From Nocardioides sp. InS609-2 (GTDB lineage: Bacteria > Actinomycetota > Actinomycetes > Propionibacteriales > Nocardioidaceae), in contig NZ_CP060034.1 in assembly GCF_023208195.1 (NCBI RefSeq), positions 1,426,001 through 1,490,000 of the forward strand: a stretch of DNA of 64,000 nt, in the 5' to 3' direction. Positions 1-14,968 of this stretch are shown here, piece after piece; positions within the stretch are counted from its first letter, which is position 1, and every line of letters starts with the position of its first letter. The translations under genes were made by a program, and so were the position numbers. The notes below the pieces were generated by a model that worked only from the letters and a program-made list of their open reading frames with translations, ran no database searches and was not told the DNA's origin.

Positions 1-1234
1 ACGAGCGGCCGTCGCGGTCGTCGCCGTACACACCGGTGTAGCGGATCGTCTCCTGGTCGGCGGGCATCTTGCCGTCGACCGCCTTGGCGACGACGCCGGC
101 GAGTACGCCGAGCAGCCGGAGGATGACGAAGGTGCGCGCGTTGGTCGGCGCCGGGAAGACCGGCGTCAGCAGCGTGCCGGGCTCGGGGAACCGCATCTCG
201 ATGAGCGGCACGATGCCCTCGTTGACGTCGAGCTCGGCCATCCGCTCGGGCGACTCGGCCAGGTTGCGCAGGATCGGCGCGAGCCACTTCTTGAGGAAGA
301 CGCCGTCGCTGTAGTCACCGCAGTGGTTGATCGGTCCCTTGGCCTGCGGGCTGGTGCCGTCGAAGTCGAGCACCAGCCGTTCGCCGTCGGGGTCGTCCTT
401 GGGTGTGCGGGTGAGGGTGATCCGCTGGGTGTGCAGCCTGGGGTCGTCGACACCGTCGTGCTCGGCGTAGTCCTCCCAGGTCCACGAGCCGACCGGGATC
501 TGGCTGAGGATCTCGCGGCGGTACGTCGTGGTGGTGCGGTCCAGGATCGCGTCGAAGCACGACTCGACCGTGGCGACGCCGTACCTCTCGAAGAGCTCAC
601 CGAGACGTCGGGCACCCATCAGGCAGGCCGAGCACTCGGCGTCGAGATCGGCGGCGAGCGACTCGGGCATCCGGGAGTTGCGGGTCATGATGCTCAACGC
701 GGCCCGGTTGGGCACACCCGCGTCCCAGAGCCGGATCGGCGGCACCATCAGGCCTTCCTCGAAGACGCTGGTGGCGTGGCTGGGCATCGAGCCCGGCACC
801 GCGCCGCCAATGTCGTCGTGGTGACCAAAAGCCTGCACGAACGCGACGACCTTGCCTTCGGCGAAGACCGGCACCGTGACGCAGAGGTCGGGCAGGTGGC
901 CGATGCCGCCCTCGGAGCGGTAGACGTCGTTGTGGAAGAAGACGTCGCCCTCGCGCATCTCCTCGATCGGGAAGTCGCGGGCGACCGGGTGCACCAGCGC
1001 GGAGTAGGACCGGCCGGTGAGCTTGCGCAGCAGCCGGTCGTGGATGCCGGCGCGGAAGTCGTGCGCGTCGCGGATCATCGGGCTGCGGCTGGTGCGGCCG
1101 ATGGCGGTCTCGACCTCCATCTCGACACTCGCGAGCGAGCCCTGCACGATCTCGACCAGCACCGGGTCGGCGCTCGCGCCGGCGTCGTCGGTCAACATGC
1201 CGTAGGGGAACTGGGTCGGCGCGCGCCTGCTCAT
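1..1234 (-). CDS. hyuB: Hydantoinase B / oxoprolinase family protein (HyuB), 3' end outside window
   Basis: The visible 411 codons form the N-terminal part of a HyuB subunit; the C-terminus lies beyond the window edge. The start ATG overlaps the hyuA stop (ATGA), so the subunits are translationally coupled. Family hallmarks seen are GDVFFHNDVYRSEGGIGHLP near residues 100-120 and GHHDDIGGAVPGSMP near residues 140-155, with a His/Asp cluster. HyuA and HyuB together form ATP-dependent ring-opening amidohydrolases (N-methylhydantoinase, 5-oxoprolinase) or related carboxylases. The substrate cannot be read from sequence. The neighbouring purine/pyrimidine-type genes suggest a cyclic ureide or imide. 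Family assignment is secure, substrate open. Confidence 0.93.
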   Translation of the reverse strand, partial: MSRRAPTQFPYGMLTDDAGASADPVLVEIVQGSLASVEMEVETAIGRTSRSPMIRDAHDFRAGIHDRLLRKLTGRSYSALVHPVARDFPIEEMREGDVFFHNDVYRSEGGIGHLPDLCVTVPVFAEGKVVAFVQAFGHHDDIGGAVPGSMPSHATSVFEEGLMVPPIRLWDAGVPNRAALSIMTRNSRMPESLAADLDAECSACLMGARRLGELFERYGVATVESCFDAILDRTTTTYRREILSQIPVGSWTWEDYAEHDGVDDPRLHTQRITLTRTPKDDPDGERLVLDFDGTSPQAKGPINHCGDYSDGVFLKKWLAPILRNLAESPERMAELDVNEGIVPLIEMRFPEPGTLLTPVFPAPTNARTFVILRLLGVLAGVVAKAVDGKMPADQETIRYTGVYGDDRDGRS

Positions 1235-3348
1235 GCTTGATCCCTCTTGTCGACTCGAGTCACGATGATGTTGAGGTAGTCGTCGACCCGGGCACTGAAG
1301 CCCGGGTGCAGCGGCACCGTGGAGCCGAACTCCTCGATGATGGCCGGGCCGTTGATCACGGTCCCCGGTGGCAGCTCGGAGCGTTGGAACAATGCGGTGT
1401 CGACGTACCCGATCTCCGCGTCAAAGCACACTTCTCTCGTTGGTCGAGTAGCCCCCGAGGCACGAGGGGGCGTATCGAGACCCTCCGCCTTCCGGATCTC
1501 CGGCCGCTGGATCGGCCCGATCCCCGACGTCCGCACGTTCACCCACTCCACCTGCTGCGAGTCGTCAGCAGAGAAGTCGTAGCCGTACAACGTCTTGTGC
1601 TCCGCATGGAACCGGTTCGCCACCTCGTCGAGCGCGGCCCGGTCGAGCGGCCCGTCGGGCACCGGCACCCGCACCTCGAAGGCCTGCCCGAAGTAGCGCA
1701 CGTCGGCGGTCCGCTGGAAGACGTGCGTCTCGTCGGCGAAGCCCTCGGTGGTGAGGGCAACGCGGGCCTGCTCGGTGAGCGCGTCGTACGCCGTCTGCAG
1801 GGTCGCGGGGTCGACCGACTCGTGCAGCGCGACATGGGTCTGCACGTAGTCGTTCTTGACGTCGACGGTGAGCAGCCCGAACGCCGACACGTTGCCGGGG
1901 TTGGGCGGCACCAGCACGGTGGGGATGCCGAGGATGTCCATCAACCTGCAGAGCAGCAGCGAGCCGGAGCCGCCGAACGTGGTGAGGGTGAAGTCGCGGA
2001 CGTCGAGCCCGCGCTTGACGGTGACCTGGCGCAGGGCGTTGGCCTGGTTCCAGGCGGAGATCTCGAGTACGCCGGCAGCACAGGCCTCGGCCGACATGCC
2101 GAGCTCCTTGGCCAGCGCCTCGATGCCCGCCTTCGCCGAGTCGGCGTCGAGCGGGATCTCGCCTCCGAGCAGATGTGGCGGGATGCGGCCGAGGAAGACG
2201 TGCGCGTCGGTGATGGTGACCTGGTCGCCGCCCTTGCCGTAGCAGATGGGACCGGGGTCGGCGCCCGCCGACTGTGGCCCGACCTTGAGCGTGCCCTCAG
2301 GCGAGAGCCAGGCGATCGAGCCGCCGCCGGCGCCGACGGTGACCACGTCGATCATCGGGATCTTCGACGGGTAGGCCCCGACGCTGCCCTCGGTGGTGAG
2401 CGCAGGCTGGCCGTCGATGACGACCGAGACGTCGGTGGACGTGCCGCCGCCGTCACTGGTGAGGACACGGTCGAAGCCGGCCACCTTGGCGATCAGCGCG
2501 GCGCCAAGGGCGCCCGCGGCAGGCCCGGACAGCACGGTGGTGATCGGCTGGTGCACGACCTCGTCGGCCGACAGCACCCCGCCGTTGGACTTCATCACGT
2601 AGAACGGCACCTTGCGGCCGCCGTACTCCTGGAGGCGTCGGCTGATGTTCGTGACGTAGCGGCTGAGCCTCGGCTTGACCGCCGCGTCGACGAGGGTGGT
2701 CATGGCGCGTTCGTACTCGCGGTACTCGCGCAGCACCTCGCTCGAGATCGAGACGACCGCGTCGGGGTGCTCCTCGGCGAGGATCGCGCGCATCCGCTCC
2801 TCGTGGTCGGGGTTTGCGTAGGCGTGCAGGAAGCAGACCCCGAGGGTGTCGATGCCCTTGGCCCTGAACCAGCGAGCGACCTCGCGCGCGCCGTCCTCGT
2901 CGAACCGCCGCACCTCCGCGCCGGTGAAGTCGAGCCGACCGCCGACCGCCTTCACGAGGTGCCTGGGCACGATCCGGGGCGGCTTCACCCAGAAGTAGGA
3001 GTTGCCGTAGCCGTCGGGCACCGACTGCCGCGCGATCTCGAGCATCGCGTCGTAGCCCTCGGTGGTGATGAACCCGAGCGCGTCGACCTTGCCCTCGAGC
3101 AGCTGGTTGGTCGCGACCGTGGTGCCGTGGCTGACCGCGGCGATCGCGCTGCCGTCACCCTCGGGAAGCCCGAGCAGCCCCAGCACCTTGTCGATGCCGG
3201 CCATGAACCCGTCGGCCGGGTCGGAGGGCGTCGAGGGGGTCTTGGTGGTGACCAGCTCCCCGCTCTCCTCGTCGAGGGCGACGACGTCGGTGAACGTGCC
3301 ACCGGTGTCGATGCCGATGCGAATCCTACGCGTTGCTGGCTCAGACAT
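1231..3348 (-). CDS. hyuA: Hydantoinase A / oxoprolinase family protein (HyuA)
   Basis: This 705-residue protein is the ATP-binding partner of HyuB. The N-terminal domain carries the acetate kinase/actin-fold phosphate loop IGIDTGGTFTDV (about residues 9-20), and the central domain has SGPAAGALGA and TSDGGGTSTDVSV. The C-terminal domain ends with a GPAIIEEFGST segment. ATP is expected to activate a cyclic amide carbonyl for hydrolysis. I chose the ATG at 3348; an ATG at 3357 is also possible and neither has a clear ribosome-binding site. Residues about 622-637 (TPPRASGATRPTRE) are translated from an interspersed palindromic repeat and have no counterpart in the family as I know it. Confidence 0.93.
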   Translation of the reverse strand: MSEPATRRIRIGIDTGGTFTDVVALDEESGELVTTKTPSTPSDPADGFMAGIDKVLGLLGLPEGDGSAIAAVSHGTTVATNQLLEGKVDALGFITTEGYDAMLEIARQSVPDGYGNSYFWVKPPRIVPRHLVKAVGGRLDFTGAEVRRFDEDGAREVARWFRAKGIDTLGVCFLHAYANPDHEERMRAILAEEHPDAVVSISSEVLREYREYERAMTTLVDAAVKPRLSRYVTNISRRLQEYGGRKVPFYVMKSNGGVLSADEVVHQPITTVLSGPAAGALGAALIAKVAGFDRVLTSDGGGTSTDVSVVIDGQPALTTEGSVGAYPSKIPMIDVVTVGAGGGSIAWLSPEGTLKVGPQSAGADPGPICYGKGGDQVTITDAHVFLGRIPPHLLGGEIPLDADSAKAGIEALAKELGMSAEACAAGVLEISAWNQANALRQVTVKRGLDVRDFTLTTFGGSGSLLLCRLMDILGIPTVLVPPNPGNVSAFGLLTVDVKNDYVQTHVALHESVDPATLQTAYDALTEQARVALTTEGFADETHVFQRTADVRYFGQAFEVRVPVPDGPLDRAALDEVANRFHAEHKTLYGYDFSADDSQQVEWVNVRTSGIGPIQRPEIRKAEGLDTPPRASGATRPTREVCFDAEIGYVDTALFQRSELPPGTVINGPAIIEEFGSTVPLHPGFSARVDDYLNIIVTRVDKRDQA
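1440..1482. repeat. Interspersed palindromic repeat inside hyuA
   Basis: The sequence begins TTGGTCGAGTAGCCCCC and ends GGGGGCGTATCGAGACC, giving an imperfect hairpin with a perfect GCCCCC/GGGGGC core and GGTCGA/TCGAGACC arms. The same arms recur at 36492-36571, and related arms occur at 7991-8010. It lies wholly within the hyuA reading frame, which stays open through it. Short elements of this kind are common in Nocardioides-like genomes, from memory and not tested here. Confidence 0.7.
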
Positions 3349-3398
3349 GGGGACCATTCAAACGACCGTGTACGACGGGCTGCGAGGTCACAATCTGC

Positions 3399-3786: not shown

Positions 3787-4290
3787 TCAGCTCTCGAGGC
3801 AGCCCTCGTCCTGGCCGATGGCGATCCACTGCTCGGCGTACACCTCGTGCTCGGCTCCGTGGCCGGCTATGTATTCGGTGTACTCCATGACGATCAGCTC
3901 GTCGATGGCCTCACAGATGTCGTCGTCATCGTCGTCATCGGCCGCCACGTCCGGGGCGTAGCGGTCGACCAGCTTCCGGGCGCCCGCGACACCTCTGCCC
4001 ACGAAGTCATCGGCGAACCGCTGGGGTGCGAAGCGACCCTGCTTGGCCGCATCTGCCAAGGTCTCTTCGAATGCTCCCCGGTAGCTCTCGAAGAAGGTCA
4101 GCAATGCCTCGGCCTGACGGCGCGCGTCGGGGCGCACCTCCCGGCGGAGGTCGTAGAGCTCGGTGATGTCGGCGACCGAGGCGCCCCGGGCAGCGAGGGC
4201 GGTGACCAGGCGGGTCACGCGCACGAACCGTTCCAGGCCGTCACCTGCCTTCGCGAGCTCGACGAAGGCGCCTGACATTGACGTAGGCAT
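3787..4290 (-). CDS. Hypothetical protein, 167 residues, divergent from XRE regulator
   Basis: I do not recognise the family. The chosen ATG at 4290 has a strong ribosome-binding site (GGAGG, 7 bases upstream). The protein looks soluble, mostly helical and acidic, with no signal peptide. Visible features are an Arg-rich central part (LRREVRPDARRQAEALLTFF) and an unbroken run of seven aspartates near residue 125. The C-terminal region is acidic and rich in Ile and Tyr (DELIVMEYTEYIAGHG). It is transcribed divergently from the XRE-TPR regulator, and a palindrome at 4522-4537 lies in the shared intergenic region, so it may be a target or partner of that regulator. Confidence 0.65.
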   Translation of the reverse strand: MPTSMSGAFVELAKAGDGLERFVRVTRLVTALAARGASVADITELYDLRREVRPDARRQAEALLTFFESYRGAFEETLADAAKQGRFAPQRFADDFVGRGVAGARKLVDRYAPDVAADDDDDDDICEAIDELIVMEYTEYIAGHGAEHEVYAEQWIAIGQDEGCLES

Positions 4291-4521: not shown

Positions 4522-4537
4522 TGACACGTATTCGTCA
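4522..4537. promoter_or_regulatory. Candidate operator TGACACGTATTCGTCA in front of XRE gene
   Basis: The 16-base site lies 20 bases before the regulator's start codon. It matches the palindrome TGACAAGATTTTGTCA at 6114-6129 at 12 of 16 positions, including both outer TGAC and GTCA arms. A shared site in front of the regulator and in front of the peptide gene is what an autoregulated signalling module would show. Binding is inferred. Confidence 0.5.
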
Positions 4538-4557
4538 TCTTCAGTCACAATGGGGGG

Positions 4558-5919
4558 ATGCGCGACGACCTCATCGACCTGCTCCGCACGATCGACCCTG
4601 CACAGCTGGGCGACCGGATCAGAACTGCGCGCCTGCGCGCGGGGCTGACCCAGACCCAGGTGGCGGGTGACGCGGTCTCGGTCGGATACGTCTCGCGGAT
4701 CGAGAGCGGACAGCGTCGGCCGGACACCGGGCTGCTCGTCGGGATTGCAGATCGGCTCGCCGTCACCGTCGATGAGCTGCTGCTCGGTGTCGCGCCCGAC
4801 CACATCGCCGAGCTGCGGCTCCAGCTCGACCACGCGGAGCTGGCACTGGCCACGGGGTCGCCTGACCAGGCGCTCGAGATCGTCAGCCGGATCCTCGCGG
4901 ATCCCGCGGTCGAGGAGCTCACCGACCTGCGTCGCAGCACCTGCTACCTCCGCGCAAGTGCCCTCGAAGCGACCGGTGACCTACAAGAGGCGATCCTCGC
5001 GCTCGAGGACCTCGCCGAGACATCGCCGCCGGACCTGGCCTGGATCGACGGTCTGGCCGCACTGAGCCGGTGCTACCGGGAGTCAGGCGAGCTCGGCCGC
5101 GCGATCGAGGTCGGCACCCAGGGGACCCGGCGCGTCGAGGAGCTCGAGCTGGACGGGGTCGACGAGGCCATCCGGCTGACCCTCACCCTCGCAGCGGCCT
5201 ACTATGAGCAGGGTGACGCCGCCTACGCCGCTCGCCTGTGCCGGCGCGGGATCGAGCGCGCGGAGGCCATTGCTTCGCCCGTTGCGAAGGCGATGGCGTA
5301 CTGGAACAGCTCGGTCATCGAGTCGATGCGCGGCAACGCCGCAGCAGCGCTGCCGATGACCCGTCGCGCCCTGGCCGTGATCGAAGCTACCGACGACGCA
5401 CGCAACATCGCGCGACTGCGCACCCACCTGGGCATCCTCCAACTTCGACTCGACCCGCCGGAGCCCGAGGAGGCGCTCGATCTCCTGACGCATGCTGCCG
5501 ACGATCTCGCGTTCACCGGTGCGGGGCCGGCCGACCTGGCCGACAACCGGATCGCACAGGCGCGCGCGCGGTTCCTGCTCGGGGACACAGACGGCGCTCG
5601 TCGTCAGGCCACCGAGACCGCGACGGGGGTTCGTTCCGGCATGCCGCTACTCGCCGCAGACGCGTTCGCCCTGCTCGGTCAGATCGCAGTGCACGAGGAT
5701 GCGCTCGACACCGCCCGCAGCCACTTCCAGGAGGCGGTCCTCCTGCTCAGTGGAGTGGGCGCGGACCGCGCGGCCGCGCAGCTGTGGTTCGAGCTCGCCG
5801 GGTTGTTCGAGAGCGTCGACGAACCCGCGTCTGCGCTAGACGCCTACCGTCGCGCCGCAGCGGCAACCGGGCTGATGGCTCCGTCCTCACGCCAGGTGAC
5901 ACCGGCGAGGACACGCTGA
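4558..5919 (+). CDS. XRE-family transcriptional regulator with C-terminal TPR domain
   Basis: This 453-residue protein has an N-terminal helix-turn-helix (about residues 17-75: LGDRIRTARLRAGLTQTQVA, then VSRIESGQRRP). About 370 residues of helical tetratricopeptide-like repeats follow, rich in ALEA, AYYEQGDAAYAARL and LLGQIAVHEDALDTA units. The architecture and length match RRNPP regulators (Rgg, PlcR, NprR, PrgX), whose TPR domains bind imported signalling peptides, and also peptide-independent actinobacterial XRE-TPR proteins. A gene for a small secreted peptide converges on it ten bases downstream, as is common for RRNPP pairs. Candidate autoregulatory operator at 4522-4537. Regulator assignment is firm; peptide sensing is inference. 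Confidence 0.88.
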   Translation: MRDDLIDLLRTIDPAQLGDRIRTARLRAGLTQTQVAGDAVSVGYVSRIESGQRRPDTGLLVGIADRLAVTVDELLLGVAPDHIAELRLQLDHAELALATGSPDQALEIVSRILADPAVEELTDLRRSTCYLRASALEATGDLQEAILALEDLAETSPPDLAWIDGLAALSRCYRESGELGRAIEVGTQGTRRVEELELDGVDEAIRLTLTLAAAYYEQGDAAYAARLCRRGIERAEAIASPVAKAMAYWNSSVIESMRGNAAAALPMTRRALAVIEATDDARNIARLRTHLGILQLRLDPPEPEEALDLLTHAADDLAFTGAGPADLADNRIAQARARFLLGDTDGARRQATETATGVRSGMPLLAADAFALLGQIAVHEDALDTARSHFQEAVLLLSGVGADRAAAQLWFELAGLFESVDEPASALDAYRRAAAATGLMAPSSRQVTPARTR

Positions 5920-5929
5920 CTCCGGGGCG

Positions 5930-6073
5930 TCAGCAGCACCAGCGGTTTGACATCACCACGGGCGCGGAGTCCAAGCTCGCCGAGTCCGGCGTCGCGGCGG
6001 TGACCACTCCCCCGACTCCCAGCAGCGACAGCATGGCGACGACTCCGACGAGGATCCTGTGCGTTCCGCTCAT
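5930..6073 (-). CDS. Small secreted peptide precursor, 47 residues
   Basis: The ATG at 6073 follows a purine-rich AGAAAGAAG stretch. The precursor has a short basic N-terminus (MSGTHR), a hydrophobic core (ILVGVVAMLSLLGVGGVV) and a small-residue cleavage region (TAA). The predicted mature peptide is about 20 residues, starting near TPDSAS and ending SNRWCC. The tail is notable for an Arg-Trp pair and two terminal cysteines. The gene converges on the XRE-TPR regulator with a ten-base gap, and a perfect palindrome lies 41 bases upstream of its start. I infer an export signal and possibly a signalling or redox-active peptide. No homologue is known to me. Confidence 0.6.
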   Translation of the reverse strand: MSGTHRILVGVVAMLSLLGVGGVVTAATPDSASLDSAPVVMSNRWCC

Positions 6074-6113
6074 GATGACTTCTTTCTGGCCCCGGAAGAC
6101 CGGAACGGTAGTT

Positions 6114-6129
6114 TGACAAGATTTTGTCA
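6114..6129. promoter_or_regulatory. Palindromic operator candidate TGACAAGATTTTGTCA
   Basis: A perfect inverted repeat (TGACAA-GATT-TTGTCA) lies 41 bases upstream of the secreted-peptide start, in an AT-rich island that contrasts with the GC-rich surroundings. It shares 12 of 16 bases with the site at 4522-4537 ahead of the XRE gene. Such a site is expected to bind a dimeric helix-turn-helix protein, most simply the adjacent XRE regulator. Confidence 0.6.
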
Positions 6130-6453
6130 CATATTGGCAAGGCTTGTGGCAGAATAGCCCTACATTGCGTTTCGAGGCACCACCCGCACATCAGATCCCC
6201 CATCTGGCGGTGTGTGTCTCGGGAACGCGGCACAGAGAAGACGCATCGACCCCGCCCGGTCAACCTCCCCCCGGAGCCGTAGGCGGGGTCGAGCGCCGTC
6301 CGGGCCCTGATCGCAGGCGCGGCCGACGGTCACGCGCCTCCGGGAAGCCGCAGCCCGCGCGGGCGGGCCGGCAGTCTCCGGGCTTCCGCCCCGGTCACGG
6401 CCGAGTACGTCCCTCGAGACCAAGGTGGCCATGGTGGTCTAGCCCAGCTGGCC
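6130..6453. other. Intergenic region with several inverted repeats
   Basis: No gene is supported here. It contains three stems: CGACCCCGCC at 6247-6256 paired with 6282-6291; GGAAGCC at 6343-6349 paired with 6381-6387, enclosing the palindrome GCCCGCGCGGGC; and AGACCA at 6417-6422 paired with 6435-6440. The promoter-proximal part presumably serves the peptide gene. The stems nearest 6454 follow the amidase operon. Confidence 0.55.
6343..6387 (-). terminator. Probable terminator of the permease-hydroxylase-amidase operon
   Basis: GGAAGCC pairs with GGCTTCC across a loop that itself contains the palindrome GCCCGCGCGGGC. It lies about 65 bases after the amidase stop on the minus strand. No T-run follows, which is usual for actinobacterial terminators. 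Confidence 0.4.
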
Positions 6454-7842
6454 TCAGCGGTCGGCGCCCTCGACGGCCGCCGCGATCTCAAGCAGCCTCC
6501 GGTCGGCGCCATGAGGGGCGACGATCTGGATGCCGACCGGCAAGCCGTCGACGGTGTCACCGGTGGGGAGGGAGATGGCCGGGCAGCCGGTGACGGTGAT
6601 GAAGTACGCCGACTTCATCCAGTCGAGGTAGGTCTCCATGGGCTTGCCGTTGATGTCGGAGGGGAACTCCTGATCGGCGGGGAACGGCGGCACCTGTGAG
6701 ACCGGCAGCACGAGGACGTCGTACTGCTCGAAGAACAGGCGCATCGCCTCGGCGAGCGAGGTGCGCTGGGCGTACGCGCGGGCGATGTCGGCGCCGGTCA
6801 GGCCCTGGCCGAGGCGGATGTTGTCGGCCAGTGACTGCTTGAAGGAGTGGGGGTTGTCGGCGAGGAGCTTCCCGAACTTCGCCTGGAAGTGCCAGGCGCG
6901 GAGGGTGCGGAAGGTGTCATCGGCGAGGCTGAGGTCGGGGTGTGCACCCGTGACGTGAGAGCCGTTCGCCGTGAACGTCCGTCCGCCTTCCTCGACCACC
7001 GCGGCGACCCGGTCGTCGACCTCGAAGGCGCCGCCGAGGTCGATGCTCAGCGCGACCCGGAGCCCGGACAACGAGCCGGCAACCGGAGACGCAAACACGG
7101 AGCCGGGGTCGCCCAAGGCCATCGGCGCCCGCGGATCCGGGCCGGCGAGGACAGAGAGGAGCAGCGCCAGGTCGCCGACGTTGCGGGCCATCGGTCCGGC
7201 GACAGACGTCGTCTCCCAGTGGTTGCGCTGCGGCCACTCCGGCACCCGGCCCAGCGACGGGCGCATGCCGACGACACCGCAGAACGACGCCGGGTTGCGC
7301 AGCGAGCCGCCCATGTCGGAGCCCTCCGCGAGCGGCACCATGCCGGAGGCCAGCGCGCACGCCGCTCCCCCACTCGAGCCGCCGGCGGAGAAGCGCGGGT
7401 CGACGGGGTTGAGCGTCGTACCGAAGATCGTGTTGAAGGTGTGCGACCCGGCGGCGAACTCCGGCACGTTGGTCTTGCCGATCGTCACCGCGCCGGCGCG
7501 GCGTACGCGCTCGACGACCAGCTCGTCGTTCTCGGGCACGTGGTCGGCGAAGAGCGGCGAGCCGTACGTCGTGCGCCAGCCCCCGACCGCGTGGGTGTCC
7601 TTGAAGGCGAACGGGAGCCCGTGCAACGGTCCGACCTCGTCGCCGGACGTCAGCGCCTCGTCGGCCTCGGTCGCGCCGGTGCGAGCGCGCTCCTCGTCGA
7701 GCGAGACGATCGCGTTGAGCCCGGGGTTGCGTTCGGCGATGCGCGCCAGGTGCAGGTCCATCAGCTCGCGCGCGGAGATCCCACGGTCGGCCACGGCCGC
7801 GACCATCTCGCGCGCGGTGGAGTCGACCGTGAGGTCGGTCAT
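6454..7842 (-). CDS. Amidase signature family amidase
   Basis: This 462-residue protein has the full amidase-signature catalytic triad: Lys81 in FAFKDTHAVGG, the cis-Ser in FSAGGSSGGAACALASG (about Ser156) and the nucleophile Ser180 in GSDMGGSLRNPASFCG. These enzymes hydrolyse amides; relatives include GatA, allophanate hydrolase and indoleacetamide hydrolase, so the substrate is not defined. It is the last gene of a six-gene operon, with a start overlapping the CoxG-like stop by four bases. In this setting it probably removes ammonia from a linear ureide or amide released by ring opening. It lacks the C-terminal extension of allophanate hydrolases. Confidence 0.9.
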   Translation of the reverse strand: MTDLTVDSTAREMVAAVADRGISARELMDLHLARIAERNPGLNAIVSLDEERARTGATEADEALTSGDEVGPLHGLPFAFKDTHAVGGWRTTYGSPLFADHVPENDELVVERVRRAGAVTIGKTNVPEFAAGSHTFNTIFGTTLNPVDPRFSAGGSSGGAACALASGMVPLAEGSDMGGSLRNPASFCGVVGMRPSLGRVPEWPQRNHWETTSVAGPMARNVGDLALLLSVLAGPDPRAPMALGDPGSVFASPVAGSLSGLRVALSIDLGGAFEVDDRVAAVVEEGGRTFTANGSHVTGAHPDLSLADDTFRTLRAWHFQAKFGKLLADNPHSFKQSLADNIRLGQGLTGADIARAYAQRTSLAEAMRLFFEQYDVLVLPVSQVPPFPADQEFPSDINGKPMETYLDWMKSAYFITVTGCPAISLPTGDTVDGLPVGIQIVAPHGADRRLLEIAAAVEGADR

Positions 7843-8465
7843 CGACGACGCCCGAGTACGGCGCCCGCGAAGACGCCGGCGAGCACGAGCCCGGCGCCGA
7901 CGGCGATGCCCGTCAGGAAGTCCTGCTGGGAGCCGACCGCCGGGGTGGCCGCGGGGGCGGTGAAGACCTGGCCGACCTCTGCCGGGGCTTGGTCTCGACT
8001 CCGCTCGACCGGCGGGGTGGGCGAGGCGCCAGACAGGACGTTGCCGACGTTGCCGAAGAACTCGCCGGCCATCTTGCGCGAGACCGAGGTGAGCATCCGC
8101 TGGCCGACGCCGCCGACCATGCCGCCGACCACTGCGTCGGCGTCGTAGGTGATGCGGGTGGTGCCGTCGCCGGCGTCGTGGAAGGCGACGGCCACCTGGG
8201 CGCCGATGGTGCCGGGAGCACCGGCGCCCTGGAGGTCCATCATCAGCGACTCGTGCGGCTGGAGGTCGTGGAGCTTGCAGGTGCCGGCGTACGTGCCCTT
8301 GATCGCGGCGACGCCGGCGGTGACGGTCATGTCGTAGGAGTTCTCGCCGGTCGCTTCGAGCCGCGAGCAGCCCGGGATCGTGCGCACCAGGACGGCCGGG
8401 TCGAGCAGCGCGTCCCAGACCTGGTCGATGGGTGCATTCAGGACGTTCTCGCCCGTGAACTTCAT
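7839..8465 (-). CDS. coxG: CoxG-like SRPBCC protein with C-terminal membrane anchor
   Basis: The 208-residue protein starts MKFTGENVLNAPIDQVWDAL, the typical CoxG opening. A START/SRPBCC fold covers about residues 1-145, followed by a Pro/Ala/Gln-rich linker and a C-terminal hydrophobic segment (LTGIAVGAGLVLAGVFAGAVLG) with terminal RRR. In carboxydotrophs CoxG anchors or helps mature CO dehydrogenase at the membrane, and it recurs with other xanthine-oxidase-family operons. The start overlaps the large-subunit stop (ATGA). Linker residues about 153-159 (ERSRDQ) come from a palindromic repeat element. Confidence 0.9.
   Translation of the reverse strand: MKFTGENVLNAPIDQVWDALLDPAVLVRTIPGCSRLEATGENSYDMTVTAGVAAIKGTYAGTCKLHDLQPHESLMMDLQGAGAPGTIGAQVAVAFHDAGDGTTRITYDADAVVGGMVGGVGQRMLTSVSRKMAGEFFGNVGNVLSGASPTPPVERSRDQAPAEVGQVFTAPAATPAVGSQQDFLTGIAVGAGLVLAGVFAGAVLGRRR
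7991..8010. repeat. Short palindromic repeat in the coxG linker
   Basis: GGTCTCGACTCCGCTCGACC has arms GGTC(TC)GA and TCGACC like those of the elements at 1440-1482 and 36492-36571. It falls in the low-complexity linker between the SRPBCC domain and the membrane anchor, a place that tolerates insertions. Confidence 0.45.
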
Positions 8466-10852
8466 GAGGTCTCCTTGTGGGTCAGGCGCAGCGCGTAGAG
8501 GTCGGACGGCGAGATCGGCATCGACGTGATGGTGAAGCCCTCGGCGTCCTCGATGGCGGCCGCGATCGCGGCGGAGCCGGGGATCACGCCGGCCTCGCCG
8601 GCGCCCTTGATGCCGAGCGGGTTGAGCGGCGACGGTGTCTCGAGGTGGTCGATCTCGATGGTGTCGGGGACCTCGGTGACGTAAGGCATCAGGAAATCCA
8701 TGAACGATGCGTTCTGCAGCTGGCCGGACTCGTCGTACGCCATCTTCTCGTAGAGCGCACCACCCACGCCCTGCGCGACACCGCCGTGGATCTGACCCTC
8801 CACGATCATCGGGTTGATGATGTTGCCGCAGTCGTGGACGACGGCGTACCGCACGATCCTGATCTCCGCGGTGTCCGGATCGGTCTCGACGATCACGGCG
8901 TGCATGCCGGAGGCGAACGTCGCGCGTTGTGGTGAGTAGAACTCCCGACCTTCCAGACCGGGCGACTCGCCCTCGGCGACCGGCGGCTTGCTCGCGTCGC
9001 CCACGGCGAACTGGGTGGCAGCCTTGGAGGCCTCGTCGAACGCGTAGCGCAGCGGGTTGGACAGCACCGCCACCGTGCCAAGTGCGAGCTGGGCGTCGGT
9101 GCCGCGCACGCGCACGATCCCGTCGATGATCTCGAGGTCGTCGACGTCGGCCTCGAGCGCTTCCGCCGCAATGCGTAGGGCCTTCTCCTTGGCCGACTTG
9201 GCGGCCAGGTGCACCGCCGAGCCGCTCATCACGGCCGCGCGCGACGCGAACGTGCCGACGGCGTACGGCATCTTGCGGGTGTCGCCGGAGGTGACCTCGA
9301 CGTCCTCGATGGGTACGCCGAGCTCGTCGGCCACGAGCTGCGCGAAGACGGTCGCGTGCCCCTGGCCCTGGGTGGTGAGGCCGATCGCGACCTTGACCTT
9401 GCCGGAGGTCTCGATGTGGACGTGCGCGCCTTCGTAGGGTCCGACGCCGGTGCCCTCGACGTAGCAGCCGAGGCCGATGCCGAGCTGCCGCCCTTCCTTT
9501 GCCGCCTCCGCCTTGAGCGCCGGGAAGTCGTCCCAGCCGATCAGCGCCTTGATCTTCTCGAGCGACGCCGGGTAGTCACCCGAGTCGTAGGTCAGCTCGC
9601 GGCCGTCCTGGAAGACCAGCCCGTGCTCGTAGGGGAACTCGTCGGGCTGGATGAAGTTGTTGGCGCGCACCTCGGCACGGTCCATGCCGAGCTCGGCAGC
9701 GATGGCGTCCATGGTCCGCTCCATCACGAAGCAGCCCTGCGGCCGGCCGGCGCCGCGGTAGGGCGTCACCATCACCGTGTTGGTGAACAGCGACTCGAAC
9801 CGCACCCGGTAGGCACCCGGCTTGTACGGCCCCAGCAGCTGGGTGGCCGTGATGATCGGGACGATCAGCCCGTACGGCGAGTAGGCGCCGTGGTCGTGCC
9901 AGAACTGCACGTCCAGGCCGAGCACCCGGCCGTCGTCGTCGAAGCCGACCTCGACGTGGTGCACCTGTGCGCGCTCGTGCGCGGAGGAGATGAAGTGCTC
10001 GCGCCGGTCCTCGGTGAACTTCACCGGGCGCCCGAGTGCGCGCGCCGCCATCGGCACGAGCAGCTCCTCGGGCCACGGGTGCACGATCTTGACGCCGAAG
10101 CCGCCGCCCACGTCGGGCGTGACGACGTCGACCTGCGCGAGGGCAAGGTCGAGCCGCGCGGCGACACAGCCTCGGACACCTGTGGACGTCTGCGTGGAGC
10201 TCCACACGGTCAGCCGGCTGGTGTCGGGGTCCCAGCGCGCGACCACTCCCCTGCCCTCCATCGGCTGGCACGAGCTGCGCTCGATGAAGAGGTCCAGCGA
10301 CAGGGTGCGCGGAGCCTTGGCGATCGCCGCCGGGGCGTCGCCGTTCTTCTGCTCCATGCGCGCACCGACATTGCCGGGTACGTCGTCGTGCACGAGGTTG
10401 GTGGCCGCGCGAGCGGCCTCGATGCCGACCACCGGCGGCAGGAACTCGTAGCTGACCCGGATCCGGTCGACGGCGTCCTCGGCGACGTAGCGGTCGTCGG
10501 CGACCACGAAGGCGATGGCCTCGCCGACGTAGTTGACCTCGTCCTTCGCGAGAGCGAACTGCGTGCGTCCGTGCGTCAGCGCCGGATGCGGGATCAGCAG
10601 CGGCAGCGGGGCCGCCATCGCGCCGGTCAGGTCCTCGTGGGTCCAGACGGCGTGCACGCCTTCGAGGCCGAGCACCTCGTCGACGTCGATCTCGAGGATC
10701 CTGGCGTGGGCGTGGGGTGATCGAAGTACGGCGGCGTGCAGCGTGCCGGCGTGCGCGCCGACCAGGATGTCGTCGACGTACCGTCCCTTGCCGCGCAGGA
10801 AACGCTGGTCCTCGACGCGCGGGACCTTCTGGCCGAAGAGCCTGGTCGTCAT
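8462..10852 (-). CDS. Molybdenum hydroxylase large subunit (xanthine dehydrogenase/CoxL-like)
   Basis: The 796-residue subunit binds the molybdopterin cytosine dinucleotide cofactor. The real start is the ATG at 10852 (MTTRLFGQKVPRVEDQRFLRG), overlapping the small-subunit stop. The active-site loop reads PYRGAGRPQ near residue 363, the form II/aldehyde-oxidase pattern, not the AYRCSFR loop of genuine CO dehydrogenase. The catalytic Glu lies in KGAGEAGVIP near residue 750, and FGGGFG-like VGGGFGVK is present. It therefore most likely hydroxylates a purine, pyrimidine or other N-heterocycle or an aldehyde, with electrons passing through the 2Fe-2S and FAD subunits encoded upstream. Confidence 0.93.
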   Translation of the reverse strand: MTTRLFGQKVPRVEDQRFLRGKGRYVDDILVGAHAGTLHAAVLRSPHAHARILEIDVDEVLGLEGVHAVWTHEDLTGAMAAPLPLLIPHPALTHGRTQFALAKDEVNYVGEAIAFVVADDRYVAEDAVDRIRVSYEFLPPVVGIEAARAATNLVHDDVPGNVGARMEQKNGDAPAAIAKAPRTLSLDLFIERSSCQPMEGRGVVARWDPDTSRLTVWSSTQTSTGVRGCVAARLDLALAQVDVVTPDVGGGFGVKIVHPWPEELLVPMAARALGRPVKFTEDRREHFISSAHERAQVHHVEVGFDDDGRVLGLDVQFWHDHGAYSPYGLIVPIITATQLLGPYKPGAYRVRFESLFTNTVMVTPYRGAGRPQGCFVMERTMDAIAAELGMDRAEVRANNFIQPDEFPYEHGLVFQDGRELTYDSGDYPASLEKIKALIGWDDFPALKAEAAKEGRQLGIGLGCYVEGTGVGPYEGAHVHIETSGKVKVAIGLTTQGQGHATVFAQLVADELGVPIEDVEVTSGDTRKMPYAVGTFASRAAVMSGSAVHLAAKSAKEKALRIAAEALEADVDDLEIIDGIVRVRGTDAQLALGTVAVLSNPLRYAFDEASKAATQFAVGDASKPPVAEGESPGLEGREFYSPQRATFASGMHAVIVETDPDTAEIRIVRYAVVHDCGNIINPMIVEGQIHGGVAQGVGGALYEKMAYDESGQLQNASFMDFLMPYVTEVPDTIEIDHLETPSPLNPLGIKGAGEAGVIPGSAAIAAAIEDAEGFTITSMPISPSDLYALRLTHKETS

Positions 10853-11355
10853 GACTGCTCCCGCTCGGCAGTGATCTCGGCTGCGCGCAGGACCGACTTC
10901 ACGATGTTCTGGTAGCCGGTGCAGCGGCACAGGTTGCCGGCGATCATCTCGGTGGCCTCGGCCTTGGTGGGCGTGGGGTTCTCGCGCAGCCCGGCGGTGA
11001 TCGTGGTCAGGAAGCCCGGCGTACAGAAGCCGCACTGGAGGCCGTGGCAGTCCGCGAACGCCTGCTGCACGGGCCCGAGCGAGTCGTCGTCACCGCCGAG
11101 TCCTTCGACGGTCGTGATCTCGGCGCCGGCGACGGAGACCGCGAGCAGCAGGCACGAGCGCACCGGCTTGCCGTCGAGCAAGACCGTGCAGGCTCCACAG
11201 ACGCCGTGCTCGCAGCCGACGTGGGTGCCGGTCAACCCGCAGTCGTGGCGGATCGCGTCGGACAGCAGCCGACGCGCGGGCACGCGCACGGCGTGCGGTG
11301 CACCGTTGACCGTCAGCGTGACGTCGTGCAGTTCTTCCCGAAATGACTCAGCCAT
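10849..11355 (-). CDS. Molybdenum hydroxylase 2Fe-2S small subunit
   Basis: The 168-residue subunit has both iron-sulfur motifs of the family. The N-terminal plant-ferredoxin-type cluster is bound by Cys48, Cys53, Cys56 and Cys68 (CEHGVCGAC). The C-terminal helical-bundle cluster is bound by Cys108, Cys111, Cys143 and Cys145 (CGFC and CRC). It carries electrons from the molybdenum centre to FAD. The start overlaps the FAD-subunit stop by eight bases and the stop overlaps the large-subunit start, giving the medium-small-large order of CO dehydrogenase-type operons. Confidence 0.96.
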   Translation of the reverse strand: MAESFREELHDVTLTVNGAPHAVRVPARRLLSDAIRHDCGLTGTHVGCEHGVCGACTVLLDGKPVRSCLLLAVSVAGAEITTVEGLGGDDDSLGPVQQAFADCHGLQCGFCTPGFLTTITAGLRENPTPTKAEATEMIAGNLCRCTGYQNIVKSVLRAAEITAEREQS

Positions 11356-12187
11356 GGGCCCTCCCGCGGGCGTGTTCGGTCGCGGCAGCCAGCACGCGCG
11401 GTGTCAGCACGCGCACCAGGTGGGCGCGGTAGTCGGCGGTGGCGTGGATGTCGGCGGCCGGATCGAGGTGGGCCATTGCTGCCGCACCCGGGTCGTCGGC
11501 GCCGGTGAGGTCGACGACGGTCGGCTGGTCGCAGACAGAGAAGAAGCCAGCCCTGGCCGAGACCACGCGGTCGCCGTCGAGTACGACGTGGGCGGCCAGG
11601 CCGGCCATCGCGTAGTCGCCCTGCCTCCGGGCGATCTCCTCGAAGGCCACGCCCGCACTCGGCACGAGGGCGGGGAAGAACGCCTCCACCGCGATCTCGT
11701 CGCGCCGCATCGACGTCTCGAGCGGGCCGACGTAGAGCTCATCGGCGGCGATGGTGCGCCGCCCCGATGGCCCTTCGACATCGACCGAGCCACCGAGGAG
11801 CATCAGCACGGCAGGCAGCTCCGACGCAGGATCCGCGTGTACGACGGAGCCCACCGTGGTGCCACGGTTGCGGATGGTCGCGTGGGCGACGTGCTCGAGG
11901 GCCATCTTCAGCAGCGGCTGCGACGCGGCGGCCTCCGCAGAGGCCAGCACCGCGCTGTGCCGAGCCAGGGCGCCGACGCGCACGCCTGCCGGAGTACACG
12001 TCACGTGGTCGAGGTCGGGCAGCCCGTTGATGTCGACGAGACGCGACGGTGCGGCGAGCCGCATCGACAGCAACGGGAGCAGGGACTGGCCACCGGCCAG
12101 CACCTTCGCGTCGGGGTCCTCACCGAGTGCAGTGAGGGCCTCCGACAGCGTCGACGGGCGGACGTAGGCGAAGGGTGCCGGCTTCAC
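11348..12187 (-). CDS. Molybdenum hydroxylase FAD-binding medium subunit
   Basis: The 279-residue protein starts at the GTG at 12187, overlapping the permease stop (GTGA), and reads (M)KPAPFAYVRPSTLSEAL. The FAD motifs are AGGQSLLPLLSMRL near residue 31 and TIRNRGTTVGSVVHADPASE near residue 97, as in CoxM and XdhB-type subunits. The C-terminal CO-dehydrogenase flavoprotein domain follows (VAFEEIARRQGDYAM...). It passes electrons from the iron-sulfur subunit to an acceptor. No stand-alone cofactor maturation gene (XdhC/CoxF type) is in the window. Confidence 0.94.
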   Translation of the reverse strand: MKPAPFAYVRPSTLSEALTALGEDPDAKVLAGGQSLLPLLSMRLAAPSRLVDINGLPDLDHVTCTPAGVRVGALARHSAVLASAEAAASQPLLKMALEHVAHATIRNRGTTVGSVVHADPASELPAVLMLLGGSVDVEGPSGRRTIAADELYVGPLETSMRRDEIAVEAFFPALVPSAGVAFEEIARRQGDYAMAGLAAHVVLDGDRVVSARAGFFSVCDQPTVVDLTGADDPGAAAMAHLDPAADIHATADYRAHLVRVLTPRVLAAATEHARGRAHG

Positions 12188-13545
12188 AGCGCCCGAGTCA
12201 CCTCGCCCGAATCGCGGCTCTTGCGGAAGTTGACCATGTGGAAGAACGCGATCACCATGATCGTGCCCAGGGCGATGCCGCCGAGCTCGAAGTCGTCGGT
12301 GATCTTGAGCGTGACGCCGCCGATGCCGGCGATCAGGCCGGCGGCGAGGCCGACCAAGTTGACCGGGTTGCCGAAGTCGACGCGGTTCTCGACCCAGATC
12401 TTGGCGCCCACCAGGCCGATCATGCCGTAGAGCACCACGGTGATCCCGCCGAGCACACCACCGGGGGTGGCGTTGACGATGGCGCCGAACTTGGGGCATA
12501 GACCGAGCAGGATCGCCACGATCGCGGCGACGTAGTAGGCAGCCGTCGAATAGACGCGAGTGGCACCCATGACGCCGATGTTCTCGGCGTACGTCGTGGT
12601 GGGCGAGCCGCCGAACGCGCTGGCGAACGCCGTGGCGAGGCCGTCGGCGCCGATCGCGCGGCCCATGTAGGGGTCGAGGTTCTCGCCGGTCATCTCGGCG
12701 ACCGCCTTGACGTGTCCGGTGTTCTCGGCGATCAGCGCGATGACGCCGGGCAGCACGAGCAGCACGAACGAGAGCGAGATGCTCGGGCCGTGCACGACCG
12801 AGACGCCGTCAAGAAGGTCACCGCTCGGGAAGCCGATCCAGTCGGCGGCCTTGACGCCCGCCCAGCTGACCCGGTCGTGGTCGAGGAGCTCGCCGTTGCT
12901 GGACCCGGTGATGGAGTTGATCGGGCCGAAGATGATGTCGGCGAAGAGGCTGATCAGGTAGCCGAAGATCAGCGCGAGGAACACCGCGATCCGGGCCCAG
13001 AAGCCGGGGAACGTCACGGCCGCCAGCACCATGAACGCGGCGGTCAGCAGCGCGATCCACTGGTCCTGGGGCCAGTAGATGCCCGCCACGACCGGAGCCA
13101 GGTTGAAGCCGATCAGCATGACGACGGCACCGGTGACGGCGGGCGGCAGGATCTTGTGGATCACGGCGCCGCCGGCGAAGTGGACGAGCACGCCCACCAG
13201 CAGCAGCACGACGCCGGCGACCATGATCGCGCCGGTGACGTCGGCGGAGTCGCCGCCCTGGCCACGGATCGCCGCGACGCTCGCGACGAACGACGCGCTG
13301 GTGCCGAGGTAGCTGGGCACCCGGTTGGCACAGATCAGCAGGAACATGATCGTGCAGATTCCGGAGAACATGATGGCGAGGTTGGCGTCGAGCCCCATCA
13401 CCAGGGGGAACACGAAGGTCGCGCCGAACATGGCCACCACGTGCTGCGCGCCGAGCCCGATCGTCTTGCCCCACGGCAGCCGCTGGTGTGGCGCGACGGC
13501 CACTCCCGGCTCCGGGTCAACCACGTCCCACTTGAACATCGACAT
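12184..13545 (-). CDS. NCS2-family uracil/xanthine permease
   Basis: This polytopic membrane protein of about 453 residues has 12-14 hydrophobic segments and the NCS2 signatures GLGAQHVVAMFGATFVFP near the N-terminus and GGSPTTTYAENIGVMGATRV in the substrate-binding region. It most resembles proton-coupled uracil/xanthine transporters. I chose the ATG at 13545, preceded by GGAGGG at about nine bases, over the upstream ATG at 13566. It is the first gene of the operon with the molybdenum hydroxylase, CoxG-like protein and amidase, indicating that the operon's substrate is an imported nucleobase-like ring. PucR, encoded just upstream, is the likely regulator. Confidence 0.93.
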   Translation of the reverse strand: MSMFKWDVVDPEPGVAVAPHQRLPWGKTIGLGAQHVVAMFGATFVFPLVMGLDANLAIMFSGICTIMFLLICANRVPSYLGTSASFVASVAAIRGQGGDSADVTGAIMVAGVVLLLVGVLVHFAGGAVIHKILPPAVTGAVVMLIGFNLAPVVAGIYWPQDQWIALLTAAFMVLAAVTFPGFWARIAVFLALIFGYLISLFADIIFGPINSITGSSNGELLDHDRVSWAGVKAADWIGFPSGDLLDGVSVVHGPSISLSFVLLVLPGVIALIAENTGHVKAVAEMTGENLDPYMGRAIGADGLATAFASAFGGSPTTTYAENIGVMGATRVYSTAAYYVAAIVAILLGLCPKFGAIVNATPGGVLGGITVVLYGMIGLVGAKIWVENRVDFGNPVNLVGLAAGLIAGIGGVTLKITDDFELGGIALGTIMVIAFFHMVNFRKSRDSGEVTRAL

Positions 13546-13702
13546 CTTCGGAGTCCCTCCACGCATTGGTCCGGGTGTGCCCGAGAAGTCACAAGTTAGT
13601 GCTCCCCATCACACCGCAGTCAGAGCGAGATCTGTCGAAGGAACGCCGGGTTCGTTGGCAGAGGTTGACGCGTGTCGCTTGGGATCGCCGGACGGCGGGC
13701 TC

Positions 13703-14968
13703 TCAGGAGATGTCGAGCACCCGCAGCGCGACCGCGACGTCGAGCCGCAGGTGCGGGTCGCTCGAGAGCGGACCGAGCTGACGTTCGAGCTTGCTGACCC
13801 GGTAGCGCAGCGTGTTGTAGTGCACGAACTGCGCCCGCGCCGCCTCGGCCACGTTGAAGTTGGTGTCGAGCAGCACCTGCAAGGTCTCGCGCGCCTTGGC
13901 CGCCTCGTCCGTCGGCTCGGCCAACGGACCGAGTACGTCGCGGGCGAACTCGCGCAGCTCGAGCGAGTCCGGCACCAGCGCGAACAGACGGTGCACGCCG
14001 AGCTGGTCGAAGAACGTCGTGGATCCGCTGCCGTGCAGCTTCTTTCCGATCGCCAGCGCCCGGCGCGACTGCGCATAGGCGTCCGGCAGCCCGGCCAGCG
14101 ACGTGATCACCCGACTCACGCCGACGGTGAACGGCCGGCGCCCACCGCCCTTGTCGCCGGCCACCGCCTTCACCACCCGTCGTACGACGTCGTGGGCCAC
14201 GCGGTCGCGCTCGAGGGCGGGCAGCAGGCACACCACCTCCGAGGAGAAGTCGGCCGTCGGGATCCCCGGGCCGACGTCGCGGGTGACCTGCCGCCAGGCC
14301 CGTGCGAAACGCTCCTGCCACTGCCGGTGCTGGGCCGACTCCCCCGCCACGTCGGCGGGCGCGGGGTCGATCTCGGCGCACACGACGACGTTGGGGCGGT
14401 TGAGGTCCCAGCCGAAGGACGCCAGGTGCCCGGTGACGTAGGCGATGTCGCCGGCCCGACCCAGGAAGAGGTCGCGCAGGAAGTCGCCCTGGTACTTCGT
14501 CTCGACGGCCGACACCGCCTGCTCACGGGTGATCAGCAACGCGGCCACGGCGGCCGCACGTTCGAGCGCGTGCACGTCGTCCTGGTTGATCTCGCCGTCC
14601 GCCCGGCAGGCCACCAGGCGTGCGAGGTCGGTGCCGCCCGCGACGACCCGCAGCACGCGCGCCTCACCGGTGCCCAGGGGTACGCCGTCGGCACCGGCCC
14701 GCTCGACCCGGACCCGGCCGGTGGGGTCGACAAGTCCGGCCTCGCCGAGCGCCGTACGCAGGTCGTCGCTGACCGCCGACGCCCGTTCCCGGCCGTCGGT
14801 CGAGGTGATCAGGACACCCAGGTCGAGGACGCGCGCGGCCTCGGCGGCGATCCGGTCGAGGTCACCGCCCTCGAGGACGAGCTCGGTCAGCGCCGAGTGC
14901 AGGGCATCGATCCGGGCCAGCGCCGCGCTGGCCCCACCACGTGTCGTCAACTGTTGGACCTCATTCAC
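13703..14968 (-). CDS. pucR: PucR-family transcriptional regulator
   Basis: The 421-residue protein has a variable N-terminal sensory part, a GGDEF-like central region and the diagnostic C-terminal PucR helix-turn-helix (about residues 345-415: TLQVLLDTNFNVAEAARAQ, HYNTLRYRVSKLERQLG). PucR proteins activate purine catabolism in Bacillus and allantoin or ureide use in actinomycetes. It is divergent from the allH-fdrA-allG operon, with only about 60 bases between, and upstream of the permease/hydroxylase operon, so it is well placed to control both. The effector is unknown. Confidence 0.92.
   Translation of the reverse strand: MNEVQQLTTRGGASAALARIDALHSALTELVLEGGDLDRIAAEAARVLDLGVLITSTDGRERASAVSDDLRTALGEAGLVDPTGRVRVERAGADGVPLGTGEARVLRVVAGGTDLARLVACRADGEINQDDVHALERAAAVAALLITREQAVSAVETKYQGDFLRDLFLGRAGDIAYVTGHLASFGWDLNRPNVVVCAEIDPAPADVAGESAQHRQWQERFARAWRQVTRDVGPGIPTADFSSEVVCLLPALERDRVAHDVVRRVVKAVAGDKGGGRRPFTVGVSRVITSLAGLPDAYAQSRRALAIGKKLHGSGSTTFFDQLGVHRLFALVPDSLELREFARDVLGPLAEPTDEAAKARETLQVLLDTNFNVAEAARAQFVHYNTLRYRVSKLERQLGPLSSDPHLRLDVAVALRVLDIS

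Follow-up and report, generated by a model that had tools for sequence, protein, structure and literature searches.

A candidate RRNPP-like regulator-peptide gene pair recurring in Actinomycetes, with operator-like repeats at both promoters

In the Bacillus cereus group, the PlcR-PapR system pairs an XRE-family HTH and TPR regulator with a small exported propeptide encoded next to it, and the C-terminus of this propeptide serves as ligand. The RRNPP/RRNPPA family is defined, in the part of PMC10075063 that we draw on, by five computational criteria: a propeptide of 10-100 aa, its secretion by Sec, a receptor of 250-500 aa, TPRs in this receptor and adjacency of the two genes. The passages of PMC12700828, PMC9765709 and PMC10075063 cited here treat it as a Bacillota (Firmicutes) family, and the last of these assigns peptide quorum sensing through cytoplasmic TPR receptors to Bacillota and describes small molecules as the typical signals of actinobacteria. 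Gamma-butyrolactones are named for Streptomyces in the passage concerned of PMC13220807, and the corresponding passage of PMC4748050 gives no such peptide system for Nocardioides. Among the open-access papers listed in our searches, none showed an RRNPP system in Actinomycetota, in agreement with the original prediction that pairs of this kind have been little described in Nocardioides-like bacteria; an earlier description may exist elsewhere.

The window, that is, the whole 64-kb stretch of Nocardioides DNA that was analysed, contains an XRE-TPR regulator gene converging on a gene for a 47-residue peptide with a putative signal sequence. This arrangement had been predicted from the letters alone, and it is borne out by both ORFs, the Pfam domains and the 10 bp between the two stop codons, with the signal recognised by motif. 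Judging from its sequence, the pair is probably an RRNPP-like peptide-receptor module with autoregulating feedback, whose signalling role we infer. Its features are the following.

4522..4537, + strand: putative operator of the regulator gene, TGACACGTATTCGTCA, a 12/16 match to TGACAAGATTTTGTCA; TGACAC-N5-YGTCA is kept in orthologues L126 and L127, with differing spacers.
4546..4551, + strand: CACAAT, likely -10 element, separated from the regulator ATG by 6 bases.
4558..5919, + strand: candidate peptide receptor, an XRE-family HTH regulator with about 9 TPRs, 453 aa (ORF, Pfam, structure model, profile against PDB).
5930..6073, - strand: propeptide gene, 47 aa, RWCC end, convergent with the regulator (ORF, homologues, convergent copies in L126 and L127).
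5933..5995, - strand: predicted exported part, 21 aa, SNRWCC end.
5996..6073, - strand: predicted signal-peptide part, residues 1-26, with the cleavage motif V-T-A before A27.
6114..6129, no strand assigned: putative operator for the peptide gene, TGACAAGATTTTGTCA, some 40 bp ahead of the ATG; the L127 counterpart is ATGTGACA-N6-TGTCACAT.
6135..6140, - strand: TTGCCA, which likely serves the peptide gene as its -35 element and lies immediately upstream of the operator.
6143..6152, - strand: CTGCCACAAG, a further conserved block lying upstream of that -35; TGCCA(C/T)A is aligned in L001, L126 and L127.

The genes flanking the pair on the minus strand (window 1231-3357 and 6454-14968) are of the N-compound catabolism type (hydantoinase A, amidase, molybdenum hydroxylase and a PucR regulator).

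The regulator, with its 453 aa, falls within the RRNPP receptor length. Pfam places an HTH at its N-terminal end (HTH_31 at residues 16-74, E 1.8e-11; HTH_3 at residues 21-74, E 8.7e-11) and finds TPR_12 (E 1.9e-9), TPR_2 and TPR_14 above their cut-offs; in the structure model (pLDDT 90.7), the helices after the HTH form nine TPR-like pairs by our own pairing. When its profile was compared with PDB, the top natural match was the peptide receptor PlcR (E 3.1e-15, profile positions 8-243 of 438), a match that has an E-value of 5.5e-4 if the single regulator sequence is used instead of the profile. PlcR as the best natural match might speak for common descent with the Bacillota receptors, but HTH and TPR are common modules. 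Generic TPR proteins, e.g., LGN, equal Rap or NprR as fold matches to the regulator, and fold alone is thus no proof of peptide-receptor function. The inner (A) helices of the TPRs are better conserved than the outer (B) helices (p 2e-4). Elsewhere in its own genome (4.52 Mb, one contig) the regulator has three other matches at E up to 0.001, all with HTH-only coverage.

Several loci carry variant forms of the regulator. Relatives that align only from about residue 77 are found in L058 (2513-6296, three in tandem), L063 (2519-3757) and L181 (2856-5113, two in tandem); they keep the W-N pair and are apparently HTH-less, their ORFs measuring 369-455 aa when counted from the first start. A CC peptide (...VADPKLCC, 3845-3970) lies between two of these apparently HTH-less relatives in L058, an arrangement like that of Rap-Phr. 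Short paralogues with an HTH and few TPRs, which match the query only to about residue 230-290, lie immediately upstream of the full-length regulator in L011, L013, L024, L036, L145 and L148, and downstream of it in L042. Regulators of family f18 were flagged as having a stop inside, and the two loci checked (L106 and L107) end at that stop.

The peptide, at 47 aa, is within the propeptide range. A longer GTG start at 6130 is available, but the homologues P0001, P0002 and P0003 (96, 77 and 74% identity, the first possibly being the database cluster of the window's own peptide) begin at the ATG. Its basic N-terminus, hydrophobic core and V-T-A motif resemble a Sec signal at the level of motif. 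By a simple rule, an A/V-x-A motif past the hydrophobic stretch is present in 100 of 113 distinct peptides from the related loci, and for 51 of these 100 the exported part is predicted to have 12-14 aa. Among 56 aligned peptides (59 before removal of duplicates), which had been picked for their CC end, the start and the Cys-Cys are the only common parts, with Cys46 and Cys47 invariant in 56/56. Another Cys is absent in 105 of the 113 distinct peptides, and the residue preceding CC is W in 61, Y in 10, G in 8, M in 7 and F in 7, so that W/Y/F/M occupy this position in 85. Close orthologues conserve mainly the last peptide residues (xRWCC). The peptides are under purifying selection, with a pN/pS of 0.46 over 22 non-overlapping pairs and of 0.53 in the last ten codons. 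Several genomes have two or three tandem peptide copies with identical or nearly identical tails.

A search of 5.8 billion proteins returned three homologues with the single peptide (one of them perhaps the window's own cluster) and nine with a profile; three of these nine carry names, all 'hypothetical protein'. Pfam and NCBIfam offered the peptides no convincing family, the best match being that of a single member out of 56 (E 0.0024). The family may have been overlooked because of the shortness of its genes, whose products seldom appear in protein databases. When the peptide profile was run against the 198 family genomes, 50 matches with E < 1e-3 reached the Cys-Cys end, all of them at regulator loci by our reading, while the remaining matches below 1e-3 ended before the Cys-Cys and one known copy (G123, L028) was missed; this search is partly circular because the profile was built from those same genomes.

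Two peptide variants stand apart. The Jiangella loci L200 and L201 have two peptides per regulator, one divergent (PGDFCC and DPGSYCC) and one convergent (GSDFCC and GSDYCC), which might be agonist and antagonist. A subfamily with regulators about 32-33% identical (L061, L064, L065, L066 and L068) has the peptide upstream on the same strand, with a basic residue after the Cys-Cys (CCR, CCRR or CCK); inspection by eye also shows CTTAC elements recurring in its promoters.

Relatives of the pair were collected by regulator sequence or profile alone, from 53 of 198 family genomes (E up to 1e-10), 94 of 394 class genomes (1e-40), 12 of 296 phylum sample genomes including the window's own (1e-50), and named genomes, where 80 of 99 confirmed loci were kept. 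DNA was taken for part of these loci, and 198 full-length regulators were reduced to 143 non-redundant ones by dropping 55 near-copies. We counted as a peptide any ORF of 28-62 aa with an ATG or GTG start, a hydrophobic segment and Cys-Cys within the last 7 residues. Such an ORF lies within 1 kb of 107 of the 143 regulators, being convergent only in 66, divergent only in 28, upstream on the same strand in 6 and of two kinds in 7. By comparison, the flanks beyond 1.2 kb, 552,521 bp in all, contained four, from which we reckon that about 2 of 143 would be expected, and the only ORF passing the rule in the whole window is the 47-aa ORF itself. The rule found 123 ORFs altogether, of which a few with long tails after the CC (AVWGW, SVDIR, PILS) may be chance. 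Orientation tracks the regulator tree: its four labels change 29 times, compared with 62.6 in shuffles, a difference to which near-copies and relatedness contribute. The recurrence of the pair across many actinomycetes points to an undescribed peptide-signal family.

These counts bear on the idea that the small ORF is a hydrophobic toxin, an antitoxin-like gene or a chance ORF beside an ordinary XRE repressor. Although its length and hydrophobic segment would resemble those of small membrane toxins, the background rate, the purifying selection, the cleavage motif and the conserved C-terminus make this idea extremely improbable, and it was on the first two of these that a chance small ORF was rejected.

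Peptide-bearing named loci include Nocardioides, Marmoricola, Jiangella, Phytoactinopolyspora, Haloactinopolyspora and Streptomyces fuscichromogenes, as well as Frankiales and Streptosporangiaceae MAGs. A 71-aa ORF with an IPLCC end, annotated as hypothetical (WP_008741297.1), is found on the same strand in a Streptomyces goshikiensis plasmid, and a Nonomuraea gerenzanensis record has a divergent ORF with a DAGCC end. No CC peptide was found beside the regulator relative in the NBC_01176 plasmid record or in a phage contig. Arbitrium (AimR-AimP) systems are carried by phages, and a mobile-element or phage origin was considered here and provisionally rejected: one pattern scan of viral contigs confirmed 0 of 30 pattern matches, and phage records gave 1 in 50,697, an unverified contig. 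Plasmid records numbered 51, of which 44 were from Streptomyces; three of the 51 and one phage record were inspected.

Conservation of the peptide beside orthologous regulators had been proposed as a check, and its outcome does not refute the prediction. It holds for the two closest, L126 and L127, both of which have a convergent ...TRWCC peptide, and fails at the next orthologue (L071/L128, 68% identical), which has no peptide; L073, L130 and L133 (52-53%) likewise have none within 1 kb. In total, 36 of the 143 regulators have no peptide within 1 kb, L072, L074, L131 and L161 among them, although four of the 36 are ambiguous cases in which a peptide lies further off (1.6 kb in L075, 2.2 kb in L196), the ORF falls outside the rule (PHWCCG in L055) or the contig ends (L154). 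Peptide-less regulators with the full groove motif (L071, L072, L073, L074, L130, L131, L133 and L037) could be receptors of another copy's signal, or could represent losses of the peptide. Both tandem propeptide copies and receptors lacking a nearby peptide are known for RRNPPA systems in the cited part of PMC9765709, RapB, RapD and RapJ being examples of the latter. The f20 relatives (L112-L115) show no CC peptide in any of the four and lack W249 in three; relatives outside the class (L214-L224) show a peptide in 0/11 and lack W249 in seven, and both groups count against universality.

The TPR domain itself bears a groove signature. L016 and L023 were removed from the receptor alignment because their matched stretch overran the stop. 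W249, in TPR helix A5, was present in 109/109 peptide-linked regulators and W410 in 107/109; W249 also occurs in 28 of the 36 regulators without a nearby peptide and in 6 of 13 others. Peptide tail distance correlates with TPR distance given the HTH (partial r 0.35, 0/300 permutations as high) but not with HTH distance given the TPR (r -0.02); the tail-TPR correlation is confounded by phylogeny, and the peptide's signal region also correlates with the TPR (0.21).

We consider it unlikely that the regulator controls the peptide without sensing it, the peptide being an extracellular effector (e.g., antimicrobial, or metal- or thiol-binding) and the TPR domain responding to something else. An operator preceding the peptide gene would suit such an effector, chemistry suggests metal binding or disulfide formation by aromatic-Cys-Cys ends as a possibility, and tandem copies could serve dosage. 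But W249 and W410 accompany the presence of the peptide, if not strictly, the tails diversify with the regulator clade as those of a ligand would, and no immunity, export or maturation gene recurs at a like rate among the neighbour families listed.

These families came from an all-against-all comparison of ORFs of 90 aa or more lying up to 3.5 kb away, which yielded at least 26 families, none of those listed approaching the peptide's 107/143. The widest among those listed occurs at 22 of 143 loci in 8 divergent groups, mostly in one Nocardioides clade, and includes what we take, by motif, to be sensor histidine kinases, which form a large superfamily. The next widest listed occurs at 9 loci in 8 groups and presumably consists of ABC-transporter ATPases, again by motif. 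A RiPP precursor with modifying enzymes was rejected on these grounds, no listed neighbour family recurring near 107/143. In one large Nocardioides clade, a gene that by motif is likely a sensor histidine kinase sits past the peptide at a distance of a few hundred bp, on the same strand as the peptide (L149, L150, L153, L155, L157, L158, L159, L166, L170, L172, L173, L175, L178, L182 and L185).

The dicysteine end itself could be read differently, as a thiol sensor in a redox or envelope-stress switch, in which the regulator would report not population density but the condition of secretion or of the envelope. Apart from the start, nothing in the peptide is invariant except Cys-Cys, and Cys172 and Cys228 of the regulator are common. 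The latter are not invariant, however (69 and 70 of 107 regulators), and the residues before the CC differ between clades in the manner of a recognition code, which together make such a switch highly unlikely.

The original prediction also placed a 16-base palindrome before the peptide gene and a 12/16 match before the regulator, and the window supports this, since on both strands 4522-4537 and 6114-6129 are the only sites with at most 4 mismatches to the 16-mer; they are also the only ones with at most 1 mismatch to TGACAN6TGTCA. Genome-wide (4.52 Mb), there are 2 instances of TGACAN6TGTCA (control 0) and 6 of TGACAN6YGTCA. Two of these 6 are the pair's putative operators; the backward-read control also gave 2 sites, and we therefore claim no excess. 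Three of the four further sites are inside ORFs (L208, L209 and L006), and the fourth (L206, G000:C1:1401444-1401459), outside the seven longest ORFs there, is an operator-like TGACACGGCGGCGTCA followed, at about 40 bp, by the first start of a 282-aa ORF that has no Pfam match. A distant regulon was considered, and no second target is evident from operator copies in the genome.

The arms recur at both promoters in L126 (81% identical) and L127 (77%) with free spacers, except that the right arm at the L126 peptide promoter is AGTCA. Their regulator promoters keep TGACAC-N5-YGTCATCTTCRGTCACAATG with variable spacer letters, and their peptide promoters have TTGCC, a short gap and then a TGACA/TGTCA-type inverted repeat. 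The putative operators thus appear to be common to both genes within the close orthologue group. The exact palindrome is not universal: TGACAN4-8TGTCA is found in 2/126 peptide promoters and 2/141 regulator promoters. In other clades the letters differ, and TTTGCCA/TGGCAAA takes its place; over both promoter sets it is enriched, being present in 42/125 peptide promoters (126 less one chance ORF, L188_0; 2.2 expected from dinucleotide shuffles, maximum 6 in 40 shuffles) and in 25/141 regulator promoters (1.8 expected, maximum 5).

As to the core promoters, the likely -35 of the peptide gene, TTGCCA, is present in 46/126 peptide promoters compared with 2.7 in letter shuffles, and is retained in L126 and replaced by TTGCCG in L127. 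CACAAT followed by 3-6 bases and the start codon is found in 31/141 regulator promoters and 0/126 peptide promoters (start codons chosen by rule), and the regulator genes look leaderless (window 4546-4560 and relatives). A scan with generic sigma-70 promoter and terminator consensus passed nothing. The position of the operator downstream of TTGCCA suggests repression, since it would fall in the presumed -35/-10 spacer of the peptide gene, while its counterpart in the other promoter is near the -35 zone of the regulator gene.

The prediction of a candidate RRNPP-type pair has thus gained in substance from the 107/143 co-conservation, the purifying selection and the PlcR match, and the pair has the form that the five RRNPP criteria describe, with secretion judged by motif; on this basis we read the regulator as a repressor whose ligand would be the re-imported C-terminal peptide. 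The propeptide would be exported by Sec and cut by signal peptidase near residue 26, and a short C-terminal peptide with an xRWCC end would be released. The mature peptide would then be taken up again, probably via an oligopeptide ABC importer, for which candidate parts exist in the form of three SBP_bac_5 proteins in the same genome, a family that is unspecific, with matches in 11 of 14 control genomes. Inside the cell it would bind the concave groove of the neighbouring regulator's TPR domain. The peptide-free regulator, sitting on TGACA-N6-TGTCA-type operators, would repress its own promoter and that of the peptide; bound peptide would alter the TPR superhelix and free or re-set the regulator, and peptide production would thereby feed back on itself. 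Such a loop might serve cell-density control and might extend to further targets.

If this is true, peptide-TPR communication would extend to a second phylum (Nocardioides, Marmoricola, Jiangellaceae, and single Streptomyces and Nonomuraea records), synthetic peptides might switch silent actinomycete functions, and the reason for two-cysteine signal ends would be a new chemical question. As a tentative extension, which we regard as somewhat doubtful, Actinomycetes may possess widespread undescribed dicysteine pheromones with cognate TPR receptors, DNA-binding or, in some Nocardioidaceae, HTH-less and Rap-like, in which the Cys-Cys end is chemically active (e.g., read only as thiol or only as vicinal disulfide ring), with the signal reporting density together with redox state.

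Among the described systems, PlcR-PapR is one with which the locus shares an HTH-TPR regulator beside a small propeptide, here predicted to be exported, and whose receptor is the best natural profile match. It differs in that the peptide is Cys-Cys-ended and convergent or divergent, and in that the regulator has about 9 TPRs in 453 aa, compared with 293 residues for PlcR (2qfc); we also take the operators to be different from the PlcR box. As regards NprR-NprX, no NprR chain is among the best 60 of 149 sequence matches, and the peptide is unrelated. Rap proteins, unlike the regulator described here, have no DNA-binding HTH. The NsdA family and other actinobacterial HTH-TPR regulators are of the same phylum and likewise of TPR type; the NsdA match is weak (18.1 bits, cut-off 75), and we know of no peptide partner for any of these regulators, whereas the one described here is encoded beside its candidate peptide.
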